DNA of 64,000 bases. It comes from Sporomusa malonica (GTDB taxonomy: Bacteria; Bacillota; Negativicutes; Sporomusales; Sporomusaceae). The stretch is from contig NZ_FWXI01000002.1 in NCBI RefSeq assembly GCF_900176355.1, forward strand, positions 279,073 through 343,072. The letters are read 5' to 3'. The position numbers and the translations under genes are program-made. This document shows, piece by piece, positions 36,522 to 55,794 of the stretch. The notes beneath the pieces are model-generated. The model made no database searches. It was not told the DNA's origin and worked only from the letters and a program-made list of their open reading frames with translations. Numbering within the stretch: position 1 is the stretch's first letter; every line of letters begins with the position of its first letter.

Positions 36522-36868
36522 GGGGGCGTACTGGTTTCGACAGGGGTAGTTATGGTATGGGTAGCGAGCCGGGGTTCCATCAGCCCGTCAACACGGTGGA
36601 CCTAAAGTAAAAGCAAACAACGAATACGCTTTAGCAGCTTAATGCTAACGTTCTACCTACGCACTCCCGCGGCCTAGGATAGGACGTCACTTAGTGGGAT
36701 ACCTGAGGCTCAATTCTCGGAGAGCCGACTGGAAAACTTTATCGAGATAGTGCTTGAGCAGCCTGTCTGTGGGCGGCAAAAGCGCAAAATTTAAATCACC
36801 GACTGCGCTCGGAGAAGCCTATGCAGTAATGCTTTTGGACAGGAGTTCGATTCTCCTCGCCTCCACCA
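36522..36868 (+). ncRNA. ssrA: tmRNA
   Basis: A 347-base tmRNA. The 5' end GGGGGCGTACTGGTTTCGAC and the 3' end, with a T-arm (GGAGTTCGATTCTCC) and CGCCTCCACCA, form the tRNA-like domain; GGGGGCG pairs with CGCCTCC. The tag open frame at 36613-36642 encodes ANNEYALAA then TAA. This is the partner of SmpB in ribosome rescue. An intact CCA end is encoded. Its 3' end is the insertion site of the island that follows. Confidence 0.97.
36857..36868 (+). repeat. Left attachment site (attL) of the ssrA island
   Basis: TCGCCTCCACCA, the last 12 bases of tmRNA, recurs exactly at 54794-54805 in the same orientation. tmRNA 3' ends are common integration sites for tyrosine-recombinase islands, which restore the gene end on insertion. 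Confidence 0.8.
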
Positions 36869-36879
36869 GTTGAATATCC

Positions 36880-36934
36880 CCTCCACCATTGATATAATAT
36901 AGATATATTATATCAATGGTGGAGGTTTTGTTTT
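36880..36934 (+). terminator. 20-bp hairpin after ssrA that includes an SD sequence
   Basis: The stem runs from 36880-36899 to 36906-36925 with perfect pairing and a 6-base loop, followed by TTTTGTTTTA. It can end ssrA transcription. The right arm contains GGTGGAGG, the ribosome binding site of the HNH gene at 36937, so read-through mRNA would have that site closed. The left arm CCTCCACCA echoes the tmRNA end. Confidence 0.8.
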
Positions 36935-36936
36935 AT

Positions 36937-37434
36937 ATGAAAATCATATGTCACCTATGTGGCAATGAATTTGAAAAACCGGATAAAGAAGTGAGAAGAC
37001 AGCAAAAAGAAGGCCGGGAGTATTTTTTTTGTAGCCGTAGTTGCACTGGTATTTATGCCAATAAAATTAGGCATAACACACCTGAAGATGGACTGAAACC
37101 CCACCAACGCAGAACCAAGAAAATTCAACAATTGCTCGGAGAAAAATTAAGCACAGCTAAATCAAAACTGAACAAACTCTTGATGTTTGAACTGGCAAAA
37201 AAGTGCAATATGGATAGCTGTTATCGCTGCGGCGAAAAAATTGACGACATTACCGATTTTACCATCGATCATAAAGAGTCCTGGTTGCTGGGCGATGATC
37301 CTGCGCAGCTCTTTTATGATATGGATAATATTGCTTTTAGTCATGCCCGGTGCAACTATGAGGCCGGAACCAAGACATTTGTAAGCAACTATAAGAATGG
37401 GGTTAAGGAAGATATGGAGTTATATGTGTACTAG
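36937..37434 (+). CDS. Zinc-finger HNH endonuclease-like protein
   Basis: A 165-aa protein. The N-terminal part has CHLCGNEF...FCSRSC, a zinc-ribbon pair (residues 5-36). The C-terminal part has CYRCGEKI, then TIDHKESWLL and the conserved FSHARCN (about 95-150), an HNH nuclease fold with structural cysteines. ATG 36937 is 10 bases after GGAGG. It may be a homing-type or restriction-type nuclease; no partner methylase is present. It lies between the tmRNA end and a second copy of the island-end repeat (37481-37504), so it may be its own small insertion. Confidence 0.8.
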   Translation: MKIICHLCGNEFEKPDKEVRRQQKEGREYFFCSRSCTGIYANKIRHNTPEDGLKPHQRRTKKIQQLLGEKLSTAKSKLNKLLMFELAKKCNMDSCYRCGEKIDDITDFTIDHKESWLLGDDPAQLFYDMDNIAFSHARCNYEAGTKTFVSNYKNGVKEDMELYVY

Positions 37435-37480
37435 ATGAGAAACCACGCGATAATGGAGTGGGTGTCAGTTAATTTATAAG

Positions 37481-42140: not shown

Positions 42141-42854
42141 ATGCGAATTGTTGACCGGATATTGGCAATTTCCGATATTCATGGCGAAAACCAAAGATTG
42201 CAGTCTCTGTTAAAACAAACTCAATATGATCCGGCAAGGGATTTACTGGTTATCTGTGGCGATATGATAGACCGCGGAACAGAAAACCTGGATGTGCTGA
42301 AAACTTGCCTAATGCTTCAGGAGCAGGGCGCGGTGCTTTTAAAGGGGAACCATGAACAATTCTTGGAGCAGAGTGTAATCGAAATGCTTGAATCCGATTC
42401 ATGGCGGACAAAGCCATCAGAGAACTTATATAATTGGGTGAAATATAACGGTGGTGTAACTATGTTTGAGGAAATAGAAAACTTAGCACCCAGTAAACTA
42501 GCAGAGATTCTGCAGTTTGTAAAAAGTTTGCCGTTATATTTTTCAACAGGTAATTTCCTGTTTACCCACGCGGGAGCTAATACGAGAAAGCCTATCGAAA
42601 AAAACACCGAAGATGAATTGGTTTGGATGGAGGATCGCTTTCCTTATTGTCCGGCGTACAAAGGAAAGGTGCTTGTTTTTGGCCATCTGCCCACCTGGCA
42701 TCTTTATCGATACGATAAGAAATTCAAAAAAACAAATGCCCGGATCTGGTTTGACCAAGAGTACCGGGACAAAATAGGCATTGACTGCGGCGGTTGTTTT
42801 GGTGGACGGCTGGCGGCTTTAGAATTGCCAAGTTACCAGGAATTTTATGCTTAA
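42141..42854 (+). CDS. PPP-family serine/threonine phosphatase-like metallophosphoesterase
   Basis: A 237-aa protein with the PPP motifs ISDIHGE (residues about 10-16), GDMIDRG (about 40-46) and LKGNHEQF (about 73-80), then FTHAG and FGHLPT. This is the PrpA/ApaH-like group that dephosphorylates proteins or dinucleoside polyphosphates with two metal ions. It is the first of three phosphatase-fold genes in the island (with 42954 and 43888). The substrate is unknown. No kinase is adjacent. Confidence 0.88.
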   Translation: MRIVDRILAISDIHGENQRLQSLLKQTQYDPARDLLVICGDMIDRGTENLDVLKTCLMLQEQGAVLLKGNHEQFLEQSVIEMLESDSWRTKPSENLYNWVKYNGGVTMFEEIENLAPSKLAEILQFVKSLPLYFSTGNFLFTHAGANTRKPIEKNTEDELVWMEDRFPYCPAYKGKVLVFGHLPTWHLYRYDKKFKKTNARIWFDQEYRDKIGIDCGGCFGGRLAALELPSYQEFYA

Positions 42855-42953
42855 GGGTACTTCCAGGAACTTTTATAGCTGATCTGAACCCAAACCTGAA
42901 AGGTCTTGTTTAGTGATACTAGTTTGAAAAAAATTAGGTATACGGAGTGAGCT

Positions 42954-43520
42954 ATGAAGAAAATCTGGTTAATTCGTCACGGCGAGAGTGTGGCAAATGC
43001 CGGGGCTGCTACGGATAATCATGTAACGATACCATTATCCGAGAACGGTCATAAGCAAGCCAGGGAAATAAGTCAAAGCATACCCTGGGTACCGGATCTG
43101 ATCATAACTTCCCCTTTTTTACGCACGCAAGAAACGGCAGCTTACACGATAAAACTGTATCCGGATGTACCGGTTACGGTTTGGGACATCCAAGAATTTA
43201 CCTACCTTGCACCGGCTTCCTGCGTAGGGACTACCGCTGCTGAACGTAGCGAGAGGGTAAATGCGTATTGGCAACGGCTTGACCCTGACTATATAGACGG
43301 CCAAGATGCAGAAAGTTTTGCCATGCTGCTATCGCGGGCCAGAATGACTATTGACCGCTTACAGCGTCTGGACGAAAGATTTATCGTCATGTTTACTCAT
43401 GCGCAGTTTATTCGCGCCATGACGCTTTTAAAAGATAATCAAGAGCAGGATGTAACATATCTCATGGGCCGATTCAGAGCGTTACCTAAGTACGGGAATT
43501 GCGAAGTGGTTGTATGGTAG
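42954..43520 (+). CDS. Histidine phosphatase family protein
   Basis: A 188-aa protein of the phosphoglycerate-mutase-like fold. It shows the catalytic RHGE of IWLIRHGESVANAG (His about 9), the loop SPFLRTQETA and the second His in FTHAQF. A phospho-His intermediate is expected; the substrate is unknown. The ATG follows CGGAGTGAG. Its last bases overlap the next gene by 7. Confidence 0.87.
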   Translation: MKKIWLIRHGESVANAGAATDNHVTIPLSENGHKQAREISQSIPWVPDLIITSPFLRTQETAAYTIKLYPDVPVTVWDIQEFTYLAPASCVGTTAAERSERVNAYWQRLDPDYIDGQDAESFAMLLSRARMTIDRLQRLDERFIVMFTHAQFIRAMTLLKDNQEQDVTYLMGRFRALPKYGNCEVVVW

Positions 43521-43846
43521 AACATAAAATGAGTAAAGTAGAACGGATTGAAGAAGCAACTCATTGGCTGTCTAAAGAAAATAATGCAAAGGCCCGGGTG
43601 AAAAAGTACACGGCTTACAAGCTCTTTGCAATGCCGGACTCTTTTTTTGGATCGGATGACGAAGAATATTGGATTATGGATGATGATGGCAATGCTTCTA
43701 TGGCTTTTTTAGTAGTAAAAGGAGTTTTTTTAAAGCATAGTTATGATTTCATTCTTAAACTTACCGAAAAGGAATTTTCAAATATGAGCGTAGAAGCAAA
43801 ACGCCAGTTTTCTTATACATTCGATAAAAATTTATGGAGTGAGTAA
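43514..43846 (+). CDS. Hypothetical protein in the phosphatase cluster
   Basis: A 110-aa soluble protein starting at the ATG that overlaps the histidine phosphatase stop; ATG 43529 is an alternative. It begins with a lysine-rich helix and has an acidic centre (GSDDEEYWIMDDDGN). No family is recognised. The overlap suggests it is translated with the histidine phosphatase and may act with it. Confidence 0.6.
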   Translation: MVEHKMSKVERIEEATHWLSKENNAKARVKKYTAYKLFAMPDSFFGSDDEEYWIMDDDGNASMAFLVVKGVFLKHSYDFILKLTEKEFSNMSVEAKRQFSYTFDKNLWSE

Positions 43847-43887
43847 ATAAGCGAATTTTCATACTTGCTCTGAATGGGAGAATTGTA

Positions 43888-45006
43888 ATGATTTATATAA
43901 CCGGGGATTTGCATGGAGATATTGACAAGGCCAAATTAACTACGAAATATTTCCCGGTGCAAAGGGAATTAACGAAGAATGATTATGTCATAATTGCTGG
44001 CGACTTTGGCTGTATTTGGTCAGGCGGCAAACAGGATGAATGGCTTTTGGATTGGCTGGAAAGCAAGAATTTCACAACACTTTTTGTAGACGGCAACCAC
44101 GAAAACTTTGATCTTTTGAATCAATTCCCTATCACGGAATGGAACGGTGGTAAAACACACCAAATAAGACCGTTCATCTTTCATTTAATGCGAGGACAGG
44201 TGTTTACAATTGAAGGGAAAAAAATATTCACATTTGGCGGCGCTGAATCAGTAGATAAACAATTCCGAAAGGAATTCATTTCGTGGTGGAGAGAGGAAGT
44301 ACCTAACCAGCACGAATTTGAAGAAGGTATTAAAAACCTCGAAAAACATGATATGACCGTGGACTATGTAATAACACATACTGCGCCTAAAGATATAATA
44401 GGTCAGCTTGATAGCTTTTTTGGAGATAGAATCAATGATTCTACCAGTGAAATGCTAAACTACTTTATGAAAAGCATTAGGTTTAAACACTGGTTTTTCG
44501 GTCATTTTCATACAAACAAAACCATAGGTAAGTTTACAGTGTTGAATAATAGATTAGTGGTATTGCAAGAAGAAGTAATCATGTCAAAAGACCCGGAGCC
44601 GCGAGATTGGAAAATAGAAAAATATAGGAGTAAATTTAAGGTAGCCTACCCGAATATAAAACAGCCGACATATGAGGAAGTTGGAGCGCTAATTGATCGA
44701 TGGGATAGAGAAGGTAGACATATAACCTACCCATTGGCGGGGCTGAACTGGAACGAACTCGAATGGCAAAAAGAGTATAAAAGAAAAAAAGAATTTAAGA
44801 TATTAGCTGAAAAAATCATAAATCACCAAGCCCATGGAGAAGAAATTTTTATGGCCTGCGGCAGTGGTGAGAAATGTCCTAAAAGTGATAATTGTAAGTG
44901 CTGGAAGCTTTATCAATACATGCTGGAGAATGAGATATTAGGCCACACTTGCATGTTATATAAACCTGAAAACTGTGAGGAATTTAGGCCGTATGGAGAT
45001 AAATAA
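43888..45006 (+). CDS. Metallophosphoesterase with cysteine-rich C-terminus
   Basis: A 372-aa protein. Residues 1-210 form a calcineurin-like phosphoesterase with TGDLHGD, AGDFGC, VDGNHENFDLL, ITHTAP and FGHFHTN (metal ligands present). Residues of about 310-372 carry cysteines (CGSGEKC, CKCWKLY, CMLY, CEEF) of unknown fold, possibly a metal site. Its role in the island is unknown. The GAGAAT ribosome binding region is weak. A terminator follows at 45128. Confidence 0.82.
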   Translation: MIYITGDLHGDIDKAKLTTKYFPVQRELTKNDYVIIAGDFGCIWSGGKQDEWLLDWLESKNFTTLFVDGNHENFDLLNQFPITEWNGGKTHQIRPFIFHLMRGQVFTIEGKKIFTFGGAESVDKQFRKEFISWWREEVPNQHEFEEGIKNLEKHDMTVDYVITHTAPKDIIGQLDSFFGDRINDSTSEMLNYFMKSIRFKHWFFGHFHTNKTIGKFTVLNNRLVVLQEEVIMSKDPEPRDWKIEKYRSKFKVAYPNIKQPTYEEVGALIDRWDREGRHITYPLAGLNWNELEWQKEYKRKKEFKILAEKIINHQAHGEEIFMACGSGEKCPKSDNCKCWKLYQYMLENEILGHTCMLYKPENCEEFRPYGDK

Positions 45007-45173: not shown

Positions 45174-45280
45174 CATATGCGAGGTTATCGGACTCGACAA
45201 ATTGAAAAGGGAAATAAACCAGTAGAAAGATAGTGGTGCTGACGTTCCTTAGAACTCTAAGGGTTTTGGAGGTTATGATA

Positions 45281-46393
45281 TTGTCATTAGATATATTTAC
45301 TTTAGCTAAAGGCTTAAAAGAAGAAGATTGTAATTCGAAGCTTTTGAATTTGATTAATCAGAACTTTATGATGTTTAATGAACGCAGTATTTTACTTAAA
45401 TGGACTAAAGATTTTATAGATCGCGATGGAAAAATAATTAATGAATTTCAGACCACATTCCATTCAAGCTTTTGGGAGTTTTATTTGAATGCCTATTTTC
45501 GCCAACATAACTACGTTCTTGATTGGACACACATTAAACCGGATTTTTTGATTACAAAGCCTTATATGATTTGTATTGAAGCTGTCGTTGCGAATATTAA
45601 ACTAAATGGTATTTCTGAAAGTCAGCGGAATCTTGAAGATCTGTTGTCTATGCTTAGTCCGCCATGGCTTCAGCAAGATTTTACTAAAATGGTGGATGAG
45701 GCAATTGTTCGCTATTCAAATGCCATTAGCAGTAAATATTTGAAATACAAAAAAGAATACTCTAAATGTGATTGGGTGAAACCTTTTTGCCCATTTGTTA
45801 TAGCAATGGCTTCATATGATCAAATTAACTATGGTAGAGAATATATTTATCCTATGATGGCATTGTTATACGGGTTGTACTATAATCCTGAGGAAAGGAG
45901 CTATTTTCCAAAAGCTACAATAAAGAAACCTGGTACAACAGCAGATATTGCATTAAATCTTTTTGCCAACCTAGAATTTAACCAGGTATCTGCTATCATT
46001 TTTTCATGCACAACAACTATTGGTAAGTTGACTTCTCTTGCAATTTCTGAGGGGCGGTCATCATTAAACCAAGTTTATATAATTAGGGAAAATCTCTTCG
46101 ATAATGGTCCGCGATATCAGCTGCAAATTGTTAGTGAAGAAAGTCCTGAATTATTGTCAGATGGAATATTCATTTTTCACAATCCAAATGCCATCAACCC
46201 ACTCGATAATGACGCTTTCCCGGATGCAACCCATTTTTTTTATGAAGAGGATGATTTTAATATTGCTGGAGTAATACCACCACTAGTTTCGAGGCTTAAT
46301 ACTTCAAAAATTTTTGTGCCAGCATTAAGTCCTCTAATTTCAGAATATTTAAGACAATATAATGATGCAACTATTGACGAATTTTATAAATGA
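45281..46393 (+). CDS. Hypothetical protein, possible PD-(D/E)XK-like fold
   Basis: A 370-aa soluble protein of unknown family. Around residues 75-95 it reads HIKPDFLITKPYMICIEAVV, a Pro-Asp then a Glu after a hydrophobic strand, which recalls the PD...E of restriction-like nucleases. The usual Lys after the Glu is replaced by Ala-Val, so the suggestion is weak. ATG 45275 is two bases after GGAGG, so TTG 45281, eight bases after it, is preferred. The gene ends 85 bases before the STAND gene and could be its partner. Confidence 0.6.
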   Translation: MSLDIFTLAKGLKEEDCNSKLLNLINQNFMMFNERSILLKWTKDFIDRDGKIINEFQTTFHSSFWEFYLNAYFRQHNYVLDWTHIKPDFLITKPYMICIEAVVANIKLNGISESQRNLEDLLSMLSPPWLQQDFTKMVDEAIVRYSNAISSKYLKYKKEYSKCDWVKPFCPFVIAMASYDQINYGREYIYPMMALLYGLYYNPEERSYFPKATIKKPGTTADIALNLFANLEFNQVSAIIFSCTTTIGKLTSLAISEGRSSLNQVYIIRENLFDNGPRYQLQIVSEESPELLSDGIFIFHNPNAINPLDNDAFPDATHFFYEEDDFNIAGVIPPLVSRLNTSKIFVPALSPLISEYLRQYNDATIDEFYK

Positions 46394-46478
46394 ACTAAAA
46401 AATGATTTGGGGATACGGATAAGAAAAGATGGCTATATAATCTTATGCCCCGAAATGTAATGGGAGTGAGTGTTAATA

Positions 46479-49301
46479 GTGAGCAATCAGTACTTAGCAA
46501 CGCCGATATTAGACAAAAATCAACTTGCTCGAATTGAAGCCGTCCATAAGGGCTTTTTGTATCAGCATTTGTATGCCGCCGCTTGCCTTCTATTGGCCCC
46601 AAATTCAGGTGTTACGTCCATCGTTGTCGAGAGAGACGAGGATGTTGAAGTGGTTTTCAGCAACCAGCGAATTTACATTCAAGTTAAGACGCGTTCAAGC
46701 CCCTTGAAATATAGCGATATCGACGGCGCTATTCAGCGCTTTGAACTGCTACGCATTGAACACCAGAACGGAGTAAGATCAGGTTCGGCTAAATTTGTTG
46801 TTGTTTCCAATATTGAACCCGGTGAAGCATTGCTAGAGCGCATAAGCCAACCGGCCTGGCCGGGTGATGTACAGATAGTCTGGCCGGATAGCATCTCCGA
46901 CAGTCTCGATGATAGGTTGCCTATGCCATGGAAAAACATTTCAGATGCCTTTGCGAAGTGTGCTGAATTAGCTGCAACGATTCCATATGGTATGCTTGCT
47001 CCAGAAACACTTGTAGGGAAACTAGCGTGGCTAGTAATGCTAGCGGCGGCAGGGAATTCGCCGCGTGAAGACCATTCTTTTCAAATAAATGAACTTTCCC
47101 AGATTTTTGAGCAGATGGTTGTCCAGTTGCAGGATTTCCCAGATCCGCCGGCGGTATACCGGACTCAGGCCGATGAGCCGCCACTTGTAACCGAGGATAG
47201 GATTAGAATTATTACCGGCTACTCAGGTTCTGGGAAGACATCGTGGGTTTCTCAGGCAGCAACGTTTACGACGAGTACCATCACATACATGGATGTCAAA
47301 GATACGCCGGGACCGGCTCTAGCGTCTGCACTGGCCCGCGAACTTGCCGCACGTCTCTTTGGCAATAAAGGTGGCCATCTTGGCGAAGTGCTTCTGCCTG
47401 GAGCTTCAGGCTTGGAAACGCTTCATGCGATCGACATACGTTTAATGACTAGTGGAGAAGCAGTCACCGTTGTTCTAGATAATGCTCACCACTTGCCACC
47501 AGCAGACATTCGGGCTGTCATCCAACAAAGTAGTTTGCTAAAGTTCATACTTATCTGTCAGCCCGGCCGTAATGTCTTTGAACTTGAGACAATCCTGTCA
47601 ATCATGGCGGAACCCTTGCACGGATGGGCAACTGATACTATTGCTTCAGAGGTTGCTTTCCAAGGGTGTCGAGGCGATTTCGCGGCATGCCAGCGTCTAT
47701 TGGAGCTAACGGCTGGATTACCGCTCTACGTTCAAAACGCTATAGCCATTACGGCAAGAGAATATGAAGGCTCTCTTACACGTTTTTGTTCCGAACTGGA
47801 GGCAAAGACACATGCGGTGGAAACGGCACAGGAAATCATCCTTGCTCGCGTTTATGATGGCTTTTCAGATGTAATCCGTGATGTGATTGGTGTTCTTAGC
47901 CTTTCGGATATTCCTTTAGAACGAAATGAAGCATCAGAAATGCTGGCGAAAATATTCGGTCTTGAGGACAGAGTTGTCGCCGCGCTCTTTCGGCAGCTTA
48001 GATCAACGGGCTCAATTGAGACTTTTGGCGGCAATCGGTTTAAGGTTCACGATGCGATGCGTCTTTTAGGGCAGTCACACCTCGACACACTTGGCAAGGA
48101 ATTTGTTCGCAAAGCACAAGACGTTCTCAAGGGGCTCGTCTTTGCTTCATTGCGACGACACTTGGAAATGCCAAAGTTTTCATTTTACCTCCGCATGCTT
48201 ATGGCAACTGGAGATATAAAGCCTCTTATCCAATTGGCAACGGATGAGTTTTTTCACGAACTTGGTGTTAATCCAGAGATCATGATGTTTCTTGAAAAAG
48301 CTGCTTCTTCTAAAGAGACAGGACCCAAAGATCACTTCTGGGTGCTAGATGCTCTCGTGTTTGCGGACATGAAGCAAGGAAATTCTCAAATAGCTTTAGA
48401 ACGGCTTGAAGAGATGAGACAACTGCTCAAGGAACATAATCTTGGAGTCGATGAACGCCTAGCTCTAGCAATGAAACGGATGAACGTCTTGGCCCGCGAG
48501 GGCAAAGCTAAGCAGATCGAAGCCGCTATGTCAGATATTTTAGAGTTACTCCCAGAGAACCCAGTTCATCAAAGGATATTTAGATACAATACCGCTCATG
48601 CGCTCTATGACCTTGGGCATTACGAAGCGGCCATCAAAGAAACGCATAGTTTGATACGGGAATATTACGATCTTCTCGGAATCACCCCAGAGGATATCTT
48701 TGGGTTGAATCCTGACAAGATTTGGCCGCTTCTCAAGAAAGATAAGGATATTACAGATAACCTAAAGCATTTGGCAGATTGCCTTGATCTTAATGCTACA
48801 GCAATGAATTGCGTCGGAAGGATTTCTCCCCTTGGGCGCCTCCATGCTATGAAGTTCTACGCCATGGCAGGTGCACCAGATTCCCTCATCCGGGTAGGAC
48901 AGGAAGTTGTCGATGAGTTTATTCGTCGAAATGATTTCATTGGAGCAAGGGAAGTTCTTGAGACGAATCTTTTGCCCAATGTTCTACAGTTAAAGATGAG
49001 TGCAAGGATTATTCCTGTTCGAAGCCAATATGCGGTTGTTCTTGCATATTGTGACGATTTCGACGCGGCAGATGCTGAAATGGCTCGATTGAAGCCGTAT
49101 GAGGCTGGTCTTAATGAACTTGGGAAATTGGAGCTGCGGAATCAACGCAAGGCAATTGAGGAGATGCGTCAGAATGGTCCTCCAAAGTGGCGAATCCCGA
49201 GCACGCCAGAAATTAATTCGATAGGGAACGCGAAAATAGGGCGAAACGCTCAATGTCCATGCGGTTCAGGCAAGAAATTCAAAAAATGCCATGGACGATA
49301 A
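46479..49301 (+). CDS. Nuclease-STAND NTPase-SEC-C protein, Avs-like defence candidate
   Basis: A 940-aa protein. The N-terminus (about 25-75) has VERDEDVEVVF and IYIQVKTR, the pattern of DUF4297/Cap4-type PD-(D/E)XK nucleases. An NTPase follows with Walker A GYSGSGKTSW (about 245-254) and a Walker B-like VVLDNAHH (about 331), then a winged-helix region. Helical repeats span about 560-900, and the last residues are CPCGSGKKFKKCHG, a zinc-binding SEC-C motif. Nuclease plus STAND plus repeat sensor is the layout of antiviral STAND (Avs) proteins, but a SEC-C tail is unusual. The GTG at 46479 has GGGAG upstream. The function is inferred, not shown. Confidence 0.75.
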   Translation: MSNQYLATPILDKNQLARIEAVHKGFLYQHLYAAACLLLAPNSGVTSIVVERDEDVEVVFSNQRIYIQVKTRSSPLKYSDIDGAIQRFELLRIEHQNGVRSGSAKFVVVSNIEPGEALLERISQPAWPGDVQIVWPDSISDSLDDRLPMPWKNISDAFAKCAELAATIPYGMLAPETLVGKLAWLVMLAAAGNSPREDHSFQINELSQIFEQMVVQLQDFPDPPAVYRTQADEPPLVTEDRIRIITGYSGSGKTSWVSQAATFTTSTITYMDVKDTPGPALASALARELAARLFGNKGGHLGEVLLPGASGLETLHAIDIRLMTSGEAVTVVLDNAHHLPPADIRAVIQQSSLLKFILICQPGRNVFELETILSIMAEPLHGWATDTIASEVAFQGCRGDFAACQRLLELTAGLPLYVQNAIAITAREYEGSLTRFCSELEAKTHAVETAQEIILARVYDGFSDVIRDVIGVLSLSDIPLERNEASEMLAKIFGLEDRVVAALFRQLRSTGSIETFGGNRFKVHDAMRLLGQSHLDTLGKEFVRKAQDVLKGLVFASLRRHLEMPKFSFYLRMLMATGDIKPLIQLATDEFFHELGVNPEIMMFLEKAASSKETGPKDHFWVLDALVFADMKQGNSQIALERLEEMRQLLKEHNLGVDERLALAMKRMNVLAREGKAKQIEAAMSDILELLPENPVHQRIFRYNTAHALYDLGHYEAAIKETHSLIREYYDLLGITPEDIFGLNPDKIWPLLKKDKDITDNLKHLADCLDLNATAMNCVGRISPLGRLHAMKFYAMAGAPDSLIRVGQEVVDEFIRRNDFIGAREVLETNLLPNVLQLKMSARIIPVRSQYAVVLAYCDDFDAADAEMARLKPYEAGLNELGKLELRNQRKAIEEMRQNGPPKWRIPSTPEINSIGNAKIGRNAQCPCGSGKKFKKCHGR

Positions 49302-49463
49302 CCTAAATAGACGGTTTATAAAGGCGAAAATAAAGCCGGTACGTGTTCAAGCTGCGCGCCAAGCCGTTATTGTTTGCAAGATGGGCTGTTTTGCCTGCTT
49401 TGGATTAAATTCCTCGGGTAATTAGCCACAGGACTGGAATGACATCAAGAAAGGGCCAAATCA

Positions 49464-50240
49464 ATGTTAGCTACATTTATAATTGATGCATACAAAAAAT
49501 CTGAATCTAAAGAGATTGCGACCATATTATCAAAATCTTGTGATGCTACTACTTGTTGTGAATGGTCTTCTGCAGGTGTCTACAGTTTTTGGGATTACTA
49601 CACGCACGAAGTATTATATATTGGCCTAGCTGTTGACTTGGCAGATCGATTTAAACAACATAATGGAATAATCCCAGCAAGAGATAATTCATGTAAAAAG
49701 CTTTATATAGATGAGTATTTCTCTCATAAAGAAAAGCTGGGATATACCATTTTTGTGCAGTCGTCTTTATCTCAACCAATTACAAGAAAAAATAGAGGTG
49801 AGATTACTGACGAGGATATATCGTATGATTTAGTAAATATGCGCGCTGCTGAAGATAGGGAAGATATCAAAGTAGTTGAAGGAACAATGATTGAGGCATA
49901 TAGAAGAAGACACGGGCGTAAGCCGAAGTGGAATAAAAGAAGAGGATCAAGATATGGAACTAATAATGTTAGGACTAATAGTTATGAATTGATTGAGTGT
50001 ATAACAAAGATGGAACCCCATCCATTGGTATCAAAGTCTACTTTTCGAGAACTTGAAACTAACCCAACATTCGAGAGATACGAACAGCTATTACATGCTT
50101 TACGTGTTAACATGCTTTATATGGGTATGGACCTTCATACAGCCTTAAATGTTGTTCTTAAGAATGGAAATCCAATGCTGGAAGAACAATATAAAGAATT
50201 GGCCCATAGTGGATATATGAGAAAACATCTAATTCTATAA
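49464..50240 (+). CDS. GIY-YIG nuclease-domain protein
   Basis: A 258-aa protein. Residues of about 37-70 give AGVYSFWDYYTHEVLYIGLA then RFKQH, the GIY-YIG core with the metal-site Arg region. The Glu expected further on may be in VEGTMIEAYRRRHGRKPKWN (about 139-158), a motif shared by short GIY-YIG proteins. The rest is helical and unassigned. It follows the STAND gene by 162 bases and may belong to the defence block. No partner is identified. Confidence 0.75.
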   Translation: MLATFIIDAYKKSESKEIATILSKSCDATTCCEWSSAGVYSFWDYYTHEVLYIGLAVDLADRFKQHNGIIPARDNSCKKLYIDEYFSHKEKLGYTIFVQSSLSQPITRKNRGEITDEDISYDLVNMRAAEDREDIKVVEGTMIEAYRRRHGRKPKWNKRRGSRYGTNNVRTNSYELIECITKMEPHPLVSKSTFRELETNPTFERYEQLLHALRVNMLYMGMDLHTALNVVLKNGNPMLEEQYKELAHSGYMRKHLIL

Positions 50241-50646
50241 GGATGAAGTTAAAGTTATTTCATAGAGGGATTCACAATACTTAGTAAATAAGTTCGTCTA
50301 TATGATTTGACTCCAGGCGAAGTTATATATGTTCCTGATACCAATGCAGTGTAATTTGGAAAATTCGTTTTTGGAAGGAAGATAAATTATGCTGATTTTA
50401 TTGCCAATAGTTCGTAAGGTCGCATAAACTGGGAATTTTTTTCTTTTCTGTGACTGATATGTGTTAGATAAAAATGCTATATGAGACAATCGCTGTTACG
50501 AAAAGTTAGAGTCTCAACGCTCATACTTTATCTTGGTTATTTTCTATATAATTACGTAATGAAAAAATGCGATGGATTACATAGGGATAGTTTATGCTAT
50601 GTTATGGTGAAAGGATCGAGTTAATGTTGTTTTGGAGGCGAAAGAA
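50241..50646. other. Intergenic stretch between the GIY-YIG and PHP-ATPase genes
   Basis: About 400 AT-rich bases with no gene longer than 14 codons that has coding character. TATAAT at about 50546 could be a -10 element for the next gene, but no good -35 lies at the right distance. I see nothing else in it. Confidence 0.3.
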
Positions 50647-53328
50647 ATGGCTATTACTTTCGAAGATCTGATAAGGGTTGATAATGGTGCACGTTTTTTT
50701 ACTGCAGACCTCCATATTCATTCCTATGGTGCATCTGAATGCGTTGGCGATGTGGGGATGACAGTAGAAACTATTATCGAACAAGCTTTAACACATAACA
50801 TTTCAATAATTGCAATAACCGATCATAATACAGATAAAAATTTAGAGGCTGCAATGAAGTGCGCTCAACATTATTTGGGGCGGATTCTGGTTATTCCTGG
50901 TGTCGAAGTAAGCACGGCACATGGACATCTATTAGTGTACTTTTCGCCTGAAAACTGGGAAAATGTACGAACGTTTTTGGCGAGAATTGAAATTGTTGGA
51001 AAATTGGGAAGCAGGGATAGTCATACGACGAAATCAATGACCGATGTAATTCGACAGGCGGAAATGATGGATGGCGTATGTATTGCAGCTCATATTGACA
51101 GGGTAAAAACTGGCTTTGAGATATTAGATTCAGGCTATCCTAGTTGGAAGAAAGATATTATTATGAGTCCAGGATTATATGGATTAGAAGTAGATAATTC
51201 GGAGAACTTAGGCTGGTATTCGCCAGAAGATGAAAAATCTGCAAATGGAGCGGAAAGACGAAAACTCGCCGATAACCGGGCATCTGTACTAACGGGAAGA
51301 CCATTATTAGCGCATGTGCAAGGTTCAGATGCTCATTCAATAAAACAATTTAGTGAAAACTGCGCTAAACGTAATTTAACCAGAATTAAGATGAACGAGT
51401 TAGATTTTAATGCATTTAGGACGTCATTGGTTGATGCAGAAGCCCGTATTAGAGCAACTGCGTCACTTCCTATTGCCGTTCCAAGAGTTCGGGGAATTTA
51501 TATAAATGGTGGTTTTCTGGATCAAGAAAATTATCACTTTAGTGATAATCTTAATTGCTTTATAGGCGGAAGAGGAGCTGGTAAATCTACCGCTATTCGT
51601 AGTTTAGTATATGGATTAGGAATGAAAGGTGAATTCGCTGAATGTGATAACTGTCCCGATGAAATAGTTGTCTATTGTGAAGATGCTAATGGCATCATTT
51701 ATCGTTACGAGCGTATTAGGGGGAGTGTCCCCAATGTGAGGGCACGGGAGGATGGGCAGATACAAAATGTGCCTGTTGACGTTTTTCCAGTTGAATATTA
51801 TGGTCAAGGTGATTTAGCCGAAGTAGCCAAAGATCCATTAGCTAACCCAATATTGTTGCAACAGTTTTTAGACCAACATCTACATATCAAAGACCTTCTA
51901 GAAAGACAGAAGGAAATTCTGAGGCTTTTGAGGCAAAATAGTGCACAGCTAATTCCTATTGAAAATTTATTTTTCCAGATTCCAGGGAAAGCGCAAATTA
52001 TCGCCGAGATTGACAAGAAACTTCAGATTGCCGAGACAGGGAAACTCAGAGAGATAGCCGCCCAGCAAATAGAATTAGGTGCGGAGAAGGGGCTACGTAA
52101 TGAATTGATGGCAATAGCTGAATTTTATGATAGAGGCATGTCTGTTACTAACTTTTTGAGGAACTATCACGATATTGCAAATGGATTAAAGGCGAACTAT
52201 CAAGGCGAGTCTACTGAACCTTATTTCAAAGATGTGGAAAAAAGTATTGACGAAACAAATCAGTATTTGAATCACAAGCAATCTGAGATTAATTCTTACT
52301 TTAAAACTGTTTCTATGAAAATTAGCGAGTCGTTGAAAAAAGTCGATGAAGTGATTGTAAATAGGCAACAAATAATAAATGGCCAGATGGCCCCGCTAAA
52401 GGAACAAGGTCTTTCCGGCAGCATTCAAGAGTTGCAGCAGCTTATTACTCGAAAGAATATTGTAATGACGGAGATTGGCAAAATAAATGGGCAAAAAAGC
52501 ACGCTTGAAACTTTGCACATTCAACGTACTGAACTACATAGCGAACTTAAACAAATACGAAATGAGATTATAAAGAAAAGAAAAAGTCAACTTAAAGTAA
52601 TTAATAAAGGCCTAGGAAGGACGATTACTGACTATACAGTTTTTCTCTGTTACGAAGATAGCGGTATTATTGATGAATTTAAAGAGTTTTTTTTAAAGGC
52701 AATGAAAGGATCATACTTCCAGGAGGAAGTAGCAATAAAAGTATGTCAAAAATTATTACCAGAGGAGCTTGCTGTTTTCATTAAGCAGAAAAATGCGAGA
52801 CAAATAGCAGAGTTGGCAGATATTTCTGAGCAATGGGCCACTGAGATATGTAATCGGATGTGCTCATTGACTGATCTATTTGAGCTGGAATTAATTTGGA
52901 AGCCGTCTTGTCCGATAATCAACTTAAAAACAAAAGGGGCTATACCGAAAGAAATTCATGTAAATCAGTTGTCAGATGGGCAGAAACATACGATTCTATT
53001 AACAATTGCTATGCTTGCGGATTCTAAATTGCCACTGATTATTGATCAACCCGAGGATGATCTGGATAATGCATTTATTTCGGCAAGTGTTGTCACTACA
53101 CTGAGGGCTATTAAAGAACGACGACAGGTTATAGTGGTAACTCATAACGCCAACATTGCTGTTTTAGGTGATGCCGAGTTAATCTTACCAATGAATCGTA
53201 TGAATGACAAAGGGATTGTAACCGACAGAGGATCAATTGATCGATCTGAAACACGAAACGAGGTAATGAGAATCTTGGAGGGCGGAGATATTGCCTTTAA
53301 ACGCCGGAAAGAAATATACGGGCATTAG
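50647..53328 (+). CDS. PHP-domain SMC-type ATPase (TrlF-like)
   Basis: An 893-aa protein. Residues of about 18-260 form a PHP phosphoesterase with DLHIHSYGASE, ITDHNT and HGHLLVYF, which hold the metal ligands. Residues 300-893 form an SMC/Rad50-like ATPase: Walker A IGGRGAGKSTAIRS (about 304-317), a long coiled coil (about 430-700), the signature LSDGQKHT (about 776) and Walker B LPLIIDQPEDDLDN (about 795-808). This architecture is annotated TrlF or PHP-ATPase and is often on mobile islands. A nucleic-acid or nucleotide phosphoesterase driven by ATP is the likely type of activity. The ATG at 50647 lies 9 bases after GGAGG. Confidence 0.85.
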   Translation: MAITFEDLIRVDNGARFFTADLHIHSYGASECVGDVGMTVETIIEQALTHNISIIAITDHNTDKNLEAAMKCAQHYLGRILVIPGVEVSTAHGHLLVYFSPENWENVRTFLARIEIVGKLGSRDSHTTKSMTDVIRQAEMMDGVCIAAHIDRVKTGFEILDSGYPSWKKDIIMSPGLYGLEVDNSENLGWYSPEDEKSANGAERRKLADNRASVLTGRPLLAHVQGSDAHSIKQFSENCAKRNLTRIKMNELDFNAFRTSLVDAEARIRATASLPIAVPRVRGIYINGGFLDQENYHFSDNLNCFIGGRGAGKSTAIRSLVYGLGMKGEFAECDNCPDEIVVYCEDANGIIYRYERIRGSVPNVRAREDGQIQNVPVDVFPVEYYGQGDLAEVAKDPLANPILLQQFLDQHLHIKDLLERQKEILRLLRQNSAQLIPIENLFFQIPGKAQIIAEIDKKLQIAETGKLREIAAQQIELGAEKGLRNELMAIAEFYDRGMSVTNFLRNYHDIANGLKANYQGESTEPYFKDVEKSIDETNQYLNHKQSEINSYFKTVSMKISESLKKVDEVIVNRQQIINGQMAPLKEQGLSGSIQELQQLITRKNIVMTEIGKINGQKSTLETLHIQRTELHSELKQIRNEIIKKRKSQLKVINKGLGRTITDYTVFLCYEDSGIIDEFKEFFLKAMKGSYFQEEVAIKVCQKLLPEELAVFIKQKNARQIAELADISEQWATEICNRMCSLTDLFELELIWKPSCPIINLKTKGAIPKEIHVNQLSDGQKHTILLTIAMLADSKLPLIIDQPEDDLDNAFISASVVTTLRAIKERRQVIVVTHNANIAVLGDAELILPMNRMNDKGIVTDRGSIDRSETRNEVMRILEGGDIAFKRRKEIYGH

Positions 53329-53488
53329 CCTCTTTTATTTTTCTATCCACTAAGCGTTATCTTTGATATCGTACACACATGGGAGAGTATAGCAAAAAAT
53401 AACGAACGAACTCATCAATTATTATAATATAGTAAAATATATAAAAGAAAATTTGCGAGTTTCACAATAATTAATAAGAGGATAAAAT

Positions 53489-54622
53489 ATGCAATCATTA
53501 TTATGCAAATGTAATACATATATGGTATTAAAGCAGATTGATTATAACTATAAAAAATATATATTTAAAAATACTCAAGTTTTAGAATGTCCAAAGTGTA
53601 AAACACAATATTTACCTCAAATTTCCAAACTTGCTTGTGAAAAATTGATAAGTATGGAAAAAAACGCACGTGGATTTGATTTTGGAAGGTTTATAGCCAT
53701 GTTATTTAAAGATAAGTTTGTTACTACCGATGTTGAATTTATATATGATAGAAATGATTATTATTTTATTCCAGGTTTACGGAGAGAATGGAACATTGGC
53801 TTTTTAACACCGGTTTTTTTTAATATAGAAGTTTTGTTAAAATATTGTTACCATCCAAGTTATTCATTAGAATTAGGAGCCGATACATATGGGAATATTT
53901 ATAAAGGTTCGGATCATCTAATCTCTTTTGGAATAAATCGCAATGGGAAAGTACTTATGTGGCTTGGGGATATAGCAAAACTAGATATTAATGAGCAACA
54001 TTATTTATGTTCAGAGAATATACATTCGGATCACGATATTGCATCTGAATTTTATGAGGGGCAGATAGAAACAAATTGGGCTGAGCCGTCGAAGGAAAAA
54101 AGTTTGTTCCAAAAAAGAACAACTTTACATGAAATAATATTAAAAAAGTTTTCTTTTAATTTAACTCAATTAGAGCCAGAAACAATTAAAACCGCTGCAA
54201 GTATATTTAGACCTATAGTATCAAGTAATACCGCTTTTACAAGTGTTATTATTCCAATGAACAAAATTTTTGTAGAATCTATTAATAATAAGCAAATTAA
54301 ACAAGACTTAAAAGAATTTGAGGATTTAAAATTAGATAAAGTTGGGAGTATAAAATTACTCCAATATTGGATTGAAAAAAGAATAGATGGAGATGCATCT
54401 AAAATTGTAGCTCCTCTATTTATACTTTACGATCTTAGAGTTTCTTTCGCACATTTACAATCGGAAGAAACGCAAGAAAAATTATTTGCATTTTCATGTG
54501 AAAGATTAGGATTGAATAAAGATTGTAGAGACTATATCCAAATATATGATGTATTGATCAATAAGCTACATGAAATGTATGATTCTATTATTAATTTAGT
54601 AGAAAACGCTTATCTATCCTGA
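53489..54622 (+). CDS. AT-rich hypothetical protein with N-terminal zinc ribbon
   Basis: A 377-aa protein. The start has CKC then CPKCKTQYLP (residues 6-37), a zinc-ribbon like that of YgiT-type or MqsA-type proteins, but the rest does not match them. The C-terminal 100 residues are helical (KLFAFSCERLGLN...INKLHEMYDSIINL). The gene is clearly more AT-rich than its neighbours, a sign of recent transfer. It is the last gene before the right island junction. No function is assigned. Confidence 0.6.
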   Translation: MQSLLCKCNTYMVLKQIDYNYKKYIFKNTQVLECPKCKTQYLPQISKLACEKLISMEKNARGFDFGRFIAMLFKDKFVTTDVEFIYDRNDYYFIPGLRREWNIGFLTPVFFNIEVLLKYCYHPSYSLELGADTYGNIYKGSDHLISFGINRNGKVLMWLGDIAKLDINEQHYLCSENIHSDHDIASEFYEGQIETNWAEPSKEKSLFQKRTTLHEIILKKFSFNLTQLEPETIKTAASIFRPIVSSNTAFTSVIIPMNKIFVESINNKQIKQDLKEFEDLKLDKVGSIKLLQYWIEKRIDGDASKIVAPLFILYDLRVSFAHLQSEETQEKLFAFSCERLGLNKDCRDYIQIYDVLINKLHEMYDSIINLVENAYLS

Positions 54623-54772: not shown

Positions 54773-54805
54773 GTGGATTTGCAAGGCCGCGGATCGCCTC
54801 CACCA
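54773..54805 (+). repeat. Right attachment site (attR) of the ssrA island
   Basis: The 24-base end sequence (54773-54796; core AAGGCCGCGGATCG) runs straight into TCGCCTCCACCA (54794-54805), an exact copy of the tmRNA 3' end at 36857-36868. Immediately after it lies a terminator hairpin that would suit the original ssrA gene. Together these mark the right junction of a 17.9-kb insertion. Confidence 0.82.
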
Positions 54806-54824: not shown

Positions 54825-54853
54825 AGCCCGCTGATTTGGCGGGCTGTCGTTTG
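54825..54853 (+). terminator. Displaced ssrA terminator
   Basis: AGCCCGC (54825-54831) pairs with GCGGGCT (54839-54845), followed by GTCGTTTG. It lies 20 bases after the attR copy of the tmRNA end, the place expected for the original ssrA terminator before insertion. The T run is weak. Confidence 0.65.
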
Positions 54854-54888
54854 AATTGTATTGAACCCTATAGAATCTAAGGATTCTT

Positions 54889-55123
54889 GGCAACCTTATG
54901 CTTATTAAAGGTACTTACGGCAAATATATGCTTAAACTATAAAGAGTGGATATTATTGCTAATTCAAGTATTTGCGCGGATTTGTAGACATTTCTGGTGG
55001 CAAACTTATGGTTAAAAAGCGGCAAAGATATGCTTAAAGTCACATATATATGTAACTTTAAGCATAAGCTTGCCGAAACGGCAAACTTATGCTTAATTTT
55101 TTGTGTGACAAACTTATGCTTAA
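54889..55123. repeat. Seven iteron-like 17-bp repeats
   Basis: Copies of GGCAAACTTATGCTTAA lie at 54889, 54919, 54999, 55021, 55080 and 55107, with one inverted copy at 55058-55074. Most have zero to three changes. Gaps are irregular (22 to 80 bases between starts), so it is not CRISPR. Such arrays bind a protein: a replication initiator, or a transposase at the end of a Tn7/Mu-like element. No matching gene is next to it. Confidence 0.8.
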
Positions 55124-55582
55124 ATATCTGTTGTGTATAAAAATCAGTTAGTTTGTTGCGTTAAGTCTGATAATAACTAATTCTTTAAATAGATAAATTG
55201 GGAATTTTTGCGGAGTAGCGGTATCCTAAGTTTATCTATATGCATTTATGCAGTTGAAAAAGTAATTATTGATGTAGTATGGCAATGATTTTAATAATGA
55301 GTGGAACGTCACAAAAGTGTAATTGATTGTTTTAGCGATAAAAAGTTTGTACCAGCGTGTTTCAGGATATAGATAAATAGAATGTAAAAAATTAAAGCTC
55401 AGCCTTAGTTCGCACTCTTTTTGAGGTTACATTCTAATTAGATGGTATTTAGGCTATGGAAAGTAATAAGGATTCGAGTTGTCAAAATGGTTATTCTGAC
55501 AACTATTCAACAAGTTATTCCTATTCTATAAATGGCTTAGAGGGGGAAGAAATTAAAAAATTATCTATCTCTTTGTCTTAGC
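55124..55582. other. AT-rich intergenic stretch
   Basis: Nothing convincing was found. A 41-codon frame at 55457-55582 (MESNKDSSCQNGYSDNYSTS...) has no ribosome binding site of note and no recognisable fold. Confidence 0.3.
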
Positions 55583-55794
55583 ACGGTTTGTAGTGCTTTT
55601 GCTGGAGGCTTTGCAATAGGCTCGGCATATGAAATTCCATTTGAGATAAGGATAAATTAGCGGATTTCATCTTGTTGTCTGAAGATGAAATAAAGGAAGG
55701 CATTTATCTGGCAATGTTCCACACTCATAATTTAGCAGAAGGCGCGGGCGCGTCAACGATAATGGCAGCTAAAAAAATCAGAATTTTATATTAA
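55583..55794 (+). pseudogene. Threonine dehydratase C-terminal remnant, frameshifted
   Basis: One frame from 55583 reads FAGGFAIGSAYEIPFEI. At about 55645 the reading moves to another frame (-1 or +2), DKLADFILLSEDEIKEGIYL, then HNLAEGAGASTIMAAKK and TAA at 55794. FAIGSAYEIPFEI and HNLAEGAG are signatures of the PLP-dependent threonine/serine dehydratase family near its catalytic C-terminus. The N-terminal two-thirds of the gene is gone. It is a decayed relic just outside the island. Confidence 0.75.

Follow-up and report, generated by a model that had tools for sequence, protein, structure and literature searches.

Tn7-like transposons are known, and it is also known that the branch with fused TnsA and TnsB homes to tRNA genes, which serve as its attachment sites (PMC11406308). 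For CyCAST, insertion takes place 30–33 nt past tRNA-Leu (PMC10293859). In Tn7 itself, one end contains three sites and the opposite end four (PMC8649781), and its att site lies beyond the right end (PMC11406308). In Dehalococcoides, tandem islands are located downstream of ssrA, with tmRNA 3′-end copies as their boundaries; they carry CcrB-like serine recombinases, which are thought to act at this repeat (PMC3146451). Neither tmRNA nor ssrA is named among attachment sites in PMC10293859, PMC8649781 or PMC11406308, and a full-text literature search gave no such site among the matches listed; the scope of that search did not include the relevant cyanobacterial survey (PMC9881144). What appears to be new in the present analysis is a family of Tn7-like elements that very probably home to tmRNA, of which the locus described here is a decayed instance.

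Organization of the repeat array and the neighbouring island

The window, that is the whole 64-kb stretch of DNA that was analysed (G000:C17:279073-343072), belongs to a genome of 5.19 Mb in 66 contigs. Between positions 54889 and 55123 it contains seven copies of the 17-mer GGCAAACTTATGCTTAA, six direct and one inverted, with 0–2 mismatches each (for start positions see Table 1). This confirms the first-pass annotation of the sequence, which had listed seven 17-bp copies in 235 bases and had ruled out a CRISPR array; the latter holds as well, given the start spacings of 30, 80, 22, 37, 22 and 27 and the inversion of one copy. When up to three mismatches were allowed, the window yielded seven matches compared with a mean of 0.52 and a maximum of 3 in 100 dinucleotide shuffles, none of which (0/100) reached seven. 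The scores for the end architectures described below were 51 for the three-site and 37 for the four-site arrangement; when the window was shuffled 60 times with dinucleotide content preserved, no position scored above 36 and 29, respectively. A chance origin of the repeats is excluded. An Rfam search of the array showed no family. Searching the whole genome for the 17-mer, as had been proposed, revealed a three-copy cluster on contig C47 (5676-5744) and palindromic pairs at C17:349105 and C27:330695. All remaining matches were singles at control level; those on C36 and C59 were set aside because they occurred at the level of the reversed-pattern control.

The copies do not form a single array, as had been assumed, and fall into two units, copies 1–4 in direct orientation and copies 5–7 in the order −,+,+, whose termini are 6 bp apart. 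We are confident that the seven repeats represent the right end of one Tn7-like element abutting the left end of another. At this locus the right-type and the left-type end face outward, not inward around one element. With one end from each of two elements pointing outward in this way, a single target duplication around 54880-55140 is not to be expected. The right junction of the island, beyond which the array had been placed, is the four-site end itself (55044). Together, L1 and L2 make up a palindrome of 39 bp (fold −21.9 kcal/mol, z −6.2), behind which comes a run of T. Partner ends were found for neither of the two elements, and the other end of the second is absent from the contig.

The island from ssrA to the array contains an HNH gene, a group II intron, an IS110 element, two metallophosphoesterases, a histidine phosphatase and defence-type genes. 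Most probably, and as part of the explanation as a whole, the 18 kb of island left of the array are the cargo of the element that owned the four-site end. The order of genes in the cargo block is collinear with that of the genes right after tnsC in the element of a relative, G031.

Just before the array, a copy of the tmRNA 3′ end is followed by a terminator-like hairpin. Repeats of the tmRNA 3′ end occur in many copies in Negativicutes genomes, where they mark tandem islands behind ssrA, and elsewhere they are also the target for three-site ends. The hairpin is kept beside the four-site end in C47 (L012) and in G003 (L061), and the order of att copy, hairpin and site seen in the window is repeated in L061. 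At L061:3071-6300 (G003:C20), a different Tn7-like system (TnsC/TniB, TnsD/TniQ) with repeats TTTGCCAACTTTATTTTTA adjoins this window-like sequence. The system, with TnsC and TnsD at the same att region, at first looked like the owner of the ends but was rejected, since it has TTTGCCAACTTTATTTTTA as its end repeats; the other tns loci examined at that stage had no 17-mer cluster nearby either.

Some further features of the ssrA region were recorded. An HNH-type gene with a preceding CCTCCACC..GGTGGAGG hairpin lies directly behind ssrA in the window (36916-37434) and in L094, L090 and L104 of the genus. Short gene cassettes arranged in arrays were seen behind ssrA at L072:9271-19428, L079:5017-15325, L010:6043 and positions 37480 and 54775 of the window, with up to seven cassettes in about 10 kb and no obvious integrase close by. 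Each cassette ends with GGTGGATTTGCAAGGTCGCGGATCGCCTCCACCA, behind which there is often TGCAAATCC, repeating its start in inverted form, and then a terminator of the tmRNA type; these arrays look like a system belonging to the ssrA islands that is integron-like or works by accretion. To the right of the array, between the three-site end and a PduL-type gene, a dehydratase-like C-terminal remnant (HNLAEGAGASTIMAAKK, about 55660-55791) is indeed present and frameshifted; the idea that it was collateral damage is not borne out, as nothing links its decay to the transposon.

Table 1. Features of the window, with positions counted from its first base.
Feature	Position	Strand	Basis or remark
ssrA (tmRNA gene)	36522..36868	+	ARAGORN; Rfam RF00023, E 2e-78
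Cargo block	42141..45006	+	Pfam, BLASTP; three genes
Metallophosphoesterase	42141-42854	+	64% identical to gene just after tnsC in G031
Histidine phosphatase	42954-43520	+	64% identical to gene just after tnsC in G031
Metallophosphoesterase with C-terminal domain	43888-45006	+	63% over 65 aa to G031 match
Defence-type cargo	45233..54622	+	PADLOC and Pfam matches
PD-T7-5-like protein	45233-46393	+	PADLOC E 3e-70
Cap4-nuclease/AAA/SEC-C protein	46470-49301	+	PADLOC/Pfam
PHP/SMC-like Ppl-related protein	50632-53328	+	PADLOC E 1e-33
DUF7479-like protein	53489-54622	+	PADLOC/Pfam
Copy of tmRNA 3′ end, GGATTTGCAAGGCCGCGGATCGCCTCCACCA	54775..54805	+	just before array; class-wide repeat
Terminator-like hairpin	54825..54845	+	fold −19.2 kcal/mol, z −4.1; between att copy and four-site end
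Four-site (right-type) end	54889-55044	+	ends AAAGTCACA; element presumably to the left (the island)
Site R4, four-site end	54889..54905	+	spacing match in G005, G061
Site R3, four-site end	54919..54935	+	spacing match in G005, G061
Site R2, four-site end	54999..55015	+	spacing match in G005, G061
Site R1 and terminus AAAGTCACA	55021..55044	+	last base 55044; terminus identical in L012, L062
Spacer TATATA between termini	55045..55050	.	six bases, about the size of a 5-bp target duplication
Three-site (left-type) end	55051-55123		starts TGTAAC, sites −,+,+; element presumably lay to the right
Terminus TGTAAC and site L1	55051..55074	+	17-mer on minus strand at 55058-55074
Site L2	55080..55096	+	orientation opposite to L1; forms palindrome with L1
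Site L3	55107..55123	+	third site of three-site end

Related ends and their transposition genes in other genomes

The end units were compared across 12 genomes of the family, then across 60 and then 150 relatives, together with 26 tmRNA flanks. A public genome collection was scanned with the terminal pattern; matches were mostly due to chance, and only loci with the full architecture were used. Both end architectures reappear nearly base for base in Negativicutes, in Bacilli and in one cyanobacterium. The four-site direct unit, ending GTCACA, was found again in C47, in G005:C33 and, in diverged form, twice in G061 (Pelosinus). Measured from the TGTGAC terminus, its sites lie at 9, 31, 111 and 141 bp in the window, G005:C33 and both G061 ends, at 9, 32, 95 and 125 bp in G031, and at 9, 32, 98, 129 and 9, 33, 100, 131 bp in the cyanobacterium. 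With this motif, no more than one or two outer sites of this end are recognised in the two Bacilli. The three-site unit (−,+,+) recurs with a TGTRA-type terminus; site 1 points inward, sites 2 and 3 are inverted and the spacings are approximately 20 and 27 bp. Its third site is recognisable in 20 of the 24 units collected.

Such ends are found together with tns genes in several genomes (G031, with TnsAB-TnsC-TniQ, and also G152, G151 and G150). The G031 transposase is a single protein with the Pfam domains TnsA-N, rve and Mu-transpos_C, and TniB and TniQ are encoded next to it. TnsAB, TnsC/TniB and TniQ/TnsD are located between the ends in G031, G152 and G151, the cyanobacterial contigs with matching ends carry TnsAB and TnsC only, and the gene order in Bacilli is TnsD, TnsAB, TnsC and a second TniQ. 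With the full-architecture filter, matching ends were detected in Lentibacillus, two Oceanobacillus species and a Prochloraceae MAG, and all of these genomes encode a fused TnsA-TnsB.

Where tns genes are present, the termini of the elements are TGT..ACA and site arrays exist at both ends. The G031 element (32 kb) is inserted inside the hairpin behind ssrA and has the target duplication ATAGA; that of O. jordanicus (G152, 36.7 kb) has TGTGT, and that of Lentibacillus (G151), whose two ends are on different contigs, has TTGTG. The proposal of the first-pass annotation that the repeats are ends of a Tn7- or Mu-like transposon is supported, because matching ends flank fused TnsA-TnsB, TnsC/TniB and TniQ elsewhere, with 5-bp duplications; the transposase and ATPase genes with the same repeats at their ends, for which it had suggested a search, do exist in other genomes (G031, G152, G151). 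In G005:C56, a three-site unit splits a tmRNA-type terminator, with AAACCCGCGAA before and TGTGATT after the junction. A shortened four-site-type unit 17.7 kb away adjoins the other terminator half, with GTCAC before and GCGAATTTCGCGGG after the junction, and the two units share the five bases GCGAA. The split terminator and the common GCGAA are thus a signature of transposon ends. A fragment of an ISL3-family transposase beside the G005:C56 end was discarded as a candidate, since it was not found near other ends. The Prochloraceae MAG contains short elements of about 4.8 kb with matching ends and TnsAB (L316, L318); for these two elements no target duplication was visible, and no tRNA or tmRNA was found on their contigs.

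The TnsAB of G031 matched the TnsAB chain of PDB entry 9bw1 over almost the full length (E 2e-299) and its TniQ matched the TnsD of 8v32/9bw1 (E 2e-72), entries which we take to represent the type I-B2 system PmcCAST. No CRISPR-Cas genes were recognised on reading through the ORFs of the element regions, including that of G031. Taken within the overall explanation, it is very likely that the family belongs to the fused-TnsAB, TnsD-guided branch of Tn7-like elements.

Probable homing to tmRNA and fate of the ends

In 12 of the 17 ends with recognisable sequence, the three-site terminus was 27–29 bp from the CCA, either that of ssrA itself or that of a 3′-end copy. The distance amounted to 31 bp in G011 and to 19–26 bp in ends whose sequence is degenerate or whose terminus is uncertain; for one G006 end (L063), the att copy was approximately 116 bp away. 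This measure is not applicable in the window, as the four-site end sits between the att copy and the three-site end. Intact tmRNA genes adjoin ends in G031, G152, G153, G011, G013 and G014. The sequence at the insertion point varies from case to case, so that it is the distance which is fixed and not the target sequence. A fixed distance with a varying target is the behaviour of TnsD-guided insertion, and we infer that TnsD reads the tmRNA 3′ end. In G014 (Lucifera butyrica), two tandem three-site ends (L065:9651 and 10032) were observed 381 bp apart right behind ssrA; no four-site end was recognised between them.

In C47, the four-site end is followed by the C-terminal part of an HNH gene like that behind the ssrA of the window, and in G031 the matching half of the post-ssrA hairpin lies beyond the four-site end. 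This suggests that the ssrA-HNH site is an old insertion point. At position +28 after ssrA the window has an intact hairpin and then the HNH gene, and a three-site end belonging to the island was not found near ssrA.

Neither TniQ, nor Mu-transpos_C or a Mu-type transposase, nor a relative of TnsAB was found in the whole genome at the sensitivity used, and tblastn detected no tns remnant in the 64-kb window. The earlier observation that the array has no associated gene can accordingly be extended to the entire genome at this sensitivity. The locus thus consists of orphan ends and is not a complete element, and its function has to be deduced from relatives because no transposase gene survives in this genome. 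TnsAB is likewise missing from most relatives in which a three-site end stands alone (G011, G013, G014, G023 and others), which indicates that many copies are relics. The ends in the window are probably inert relics as well, possibly mobilisable in trans.

In the mechanism that we propose, the repeats would be putative binding sites of a TnsB-type transposase in two Tn7-like ends. TnsD, a member of the TniQ family, would recognise the 3′ end of the tmRNA gene or its copy, and TnsC would carry the signal from TnsD. TnsAB, which presumably binds the 17-mer sites, would then pair the ends and insert the element about 28 bp past the CCA, leaving a 5-bp duplication and the three-site end nearest the tmRNA gene. 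The unit at 55051-55123 would be the end of a second, older element formerly located at the right. A later insertion at the same spot may have placed the newcomer with its four-site end against the resident's three-site end, the two being separated by one target duplication; tandem insertion at one point would lead to the observed junction of right end, 6 bp and left end. The tns genes and partner ends would since have been lost from this genome. We infer such a history of tandem insertion, against which it counts that the spacer is 6 bp long and a duplication of 5 bp would be expected.

As far as can be judged from the sequence, a right end, a few base pairs and a left end would also be the junction of a circle or tandem dimer, and the Tn7-like ends might thus have come together by tandem dimerization or head-to-tail rearrangement of one element. 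This seems rather unlikely, as the two termini differ (GTCACA versus TGTAAC) and left-type ends are common as singles at other ssrA loci.

The hairpin formed by sites 1 and 2 deserves separate consideration. Tentatively, tmRNA may be the dedicated attachment gene of a Tn7-like branch across Negativicutes and Bacilli, and the three-site hairpin may replace the ssrA terminator that insertion splits in some hosts and may have been kept in this role by the host long after loss of the transposon. Another reading takes the 39-bp palindrome simply as an intrinsic terminator that is conserved for ssrA or its islands, which would make the other copies by-products. The palindrome can form a hairpin of −21.9 kcal/mol with a T run and is situated within approximately 160 bp after ssrA in G011, G013 and G023; moreover, sites 1 and 2 match in 13–14 of 15 bases in these genomes and in G020:C13, and site 3 is decayed there. 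However, four direct sites, a third site at fixed spacing, TGT/ACA termini and target duplications are left unexplained by a terminator, and the end in Bacilli sits after an intact ssrA terminator. Over 20 ends, site 1 was about as similar to site 2 as to site 3 (means 12.45 versus 12.1 of 15; Wilcoxon p 0.49). Hence, retention as ssrA terminator is a guess, and hairpin-specific selection is not supported by site identity over all ends. A terminator in the place of transposon ends is very improbable, and as the full explanation it is refuted. Covariance-model matches of the palindrome with a GAAGC..GCTTC stem were ordinary terminators and were removed by hand from their context. Ordinary intergenic terminators with the stem AGAAGCATAAGCTTGCC..GGCAAGCTTATGCTTCT that resemble the palindrome were seen at L151, L076, L070 and L156.

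The repeats might also be arm-type sites (attP arms) belonging to an ssrA-island integrase of the tyrosine or serine type, since they adjoin the tmRNA 3′-end copies that mark tandem ssrA islands and since islands with 3′-end direct repeats are known from Dehalococcoides (PMC3146451). We rejected integrase arms, which have hardly any probability: PF00589 genes do not track the unit and are missing near it in most loci, ends like these flank tns genes with 5-bp duplications, and insertion 28 bp past the CCA is outside the repeated core. An array to which a replication initiator (iterons) or a regulator (operators) binds would be in line with seven repeats within 235 bp and can practically be dismissed, given the few other genomic loci, the linkage of the ends to tns genes elsewhere and the lack of a conserved neighbour gene; each genome has other genes next to the unit, which also speaks against a conserved promoter of a nearby gene, the contrary case named in the first-pass annotation.

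Comparison with described systems

With the repeats read as the ends of two Tn7-like elements, the tmRNA gene joins the attachment sites of TnsD-guided Tn7-like transposons. The signature of three and four sites allows decayed or tns-less elements to be recognised, and the family partly explains the hotspot of defence islands behind ssrA in these bacteria. It also provides natural variants for learning how TnsD reads tRNA-like 3′ ends, which is relevant to programmable DNA insertion tools.

Compared with the Dehalococcoides islands, the window has the same kind of boundary, copies of the tmRNA 3′ end such as that at 54775-54805. The 17-mer ends differ from these recombinase islands by their Tn7-like mechanism, although the same gene and its copies are the target. 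With Tn7, the tmRNA family has in common the three and four sites, the TGT/ACA termini, the 5-bp duplication and insertion just downstream of a conserved gene. In contrast to Tn7, TnsA and TnsB of the family are fused, the target is tmRNA instead of glmS, and it is the three-site end, not the right end, that faces the target gene. The left end of Tn7 also differs from the three-site end, in which sites 2 and 3 are inverted relative to site 1. The type I-B2 CAST (PmcCAST, Tn7744) and type I-D CASTs share the fused TnsA-TnsB and a homologous TnsD with the G031 element. Both these CASTs and the tmRNA family insert downstream of an RNA gene, approximately 30 bp from its 3′ end; the CASTs attach at tRNA, whereas the tmRNA family attaches at ssrA, and the copy in the window comprises the ends only.
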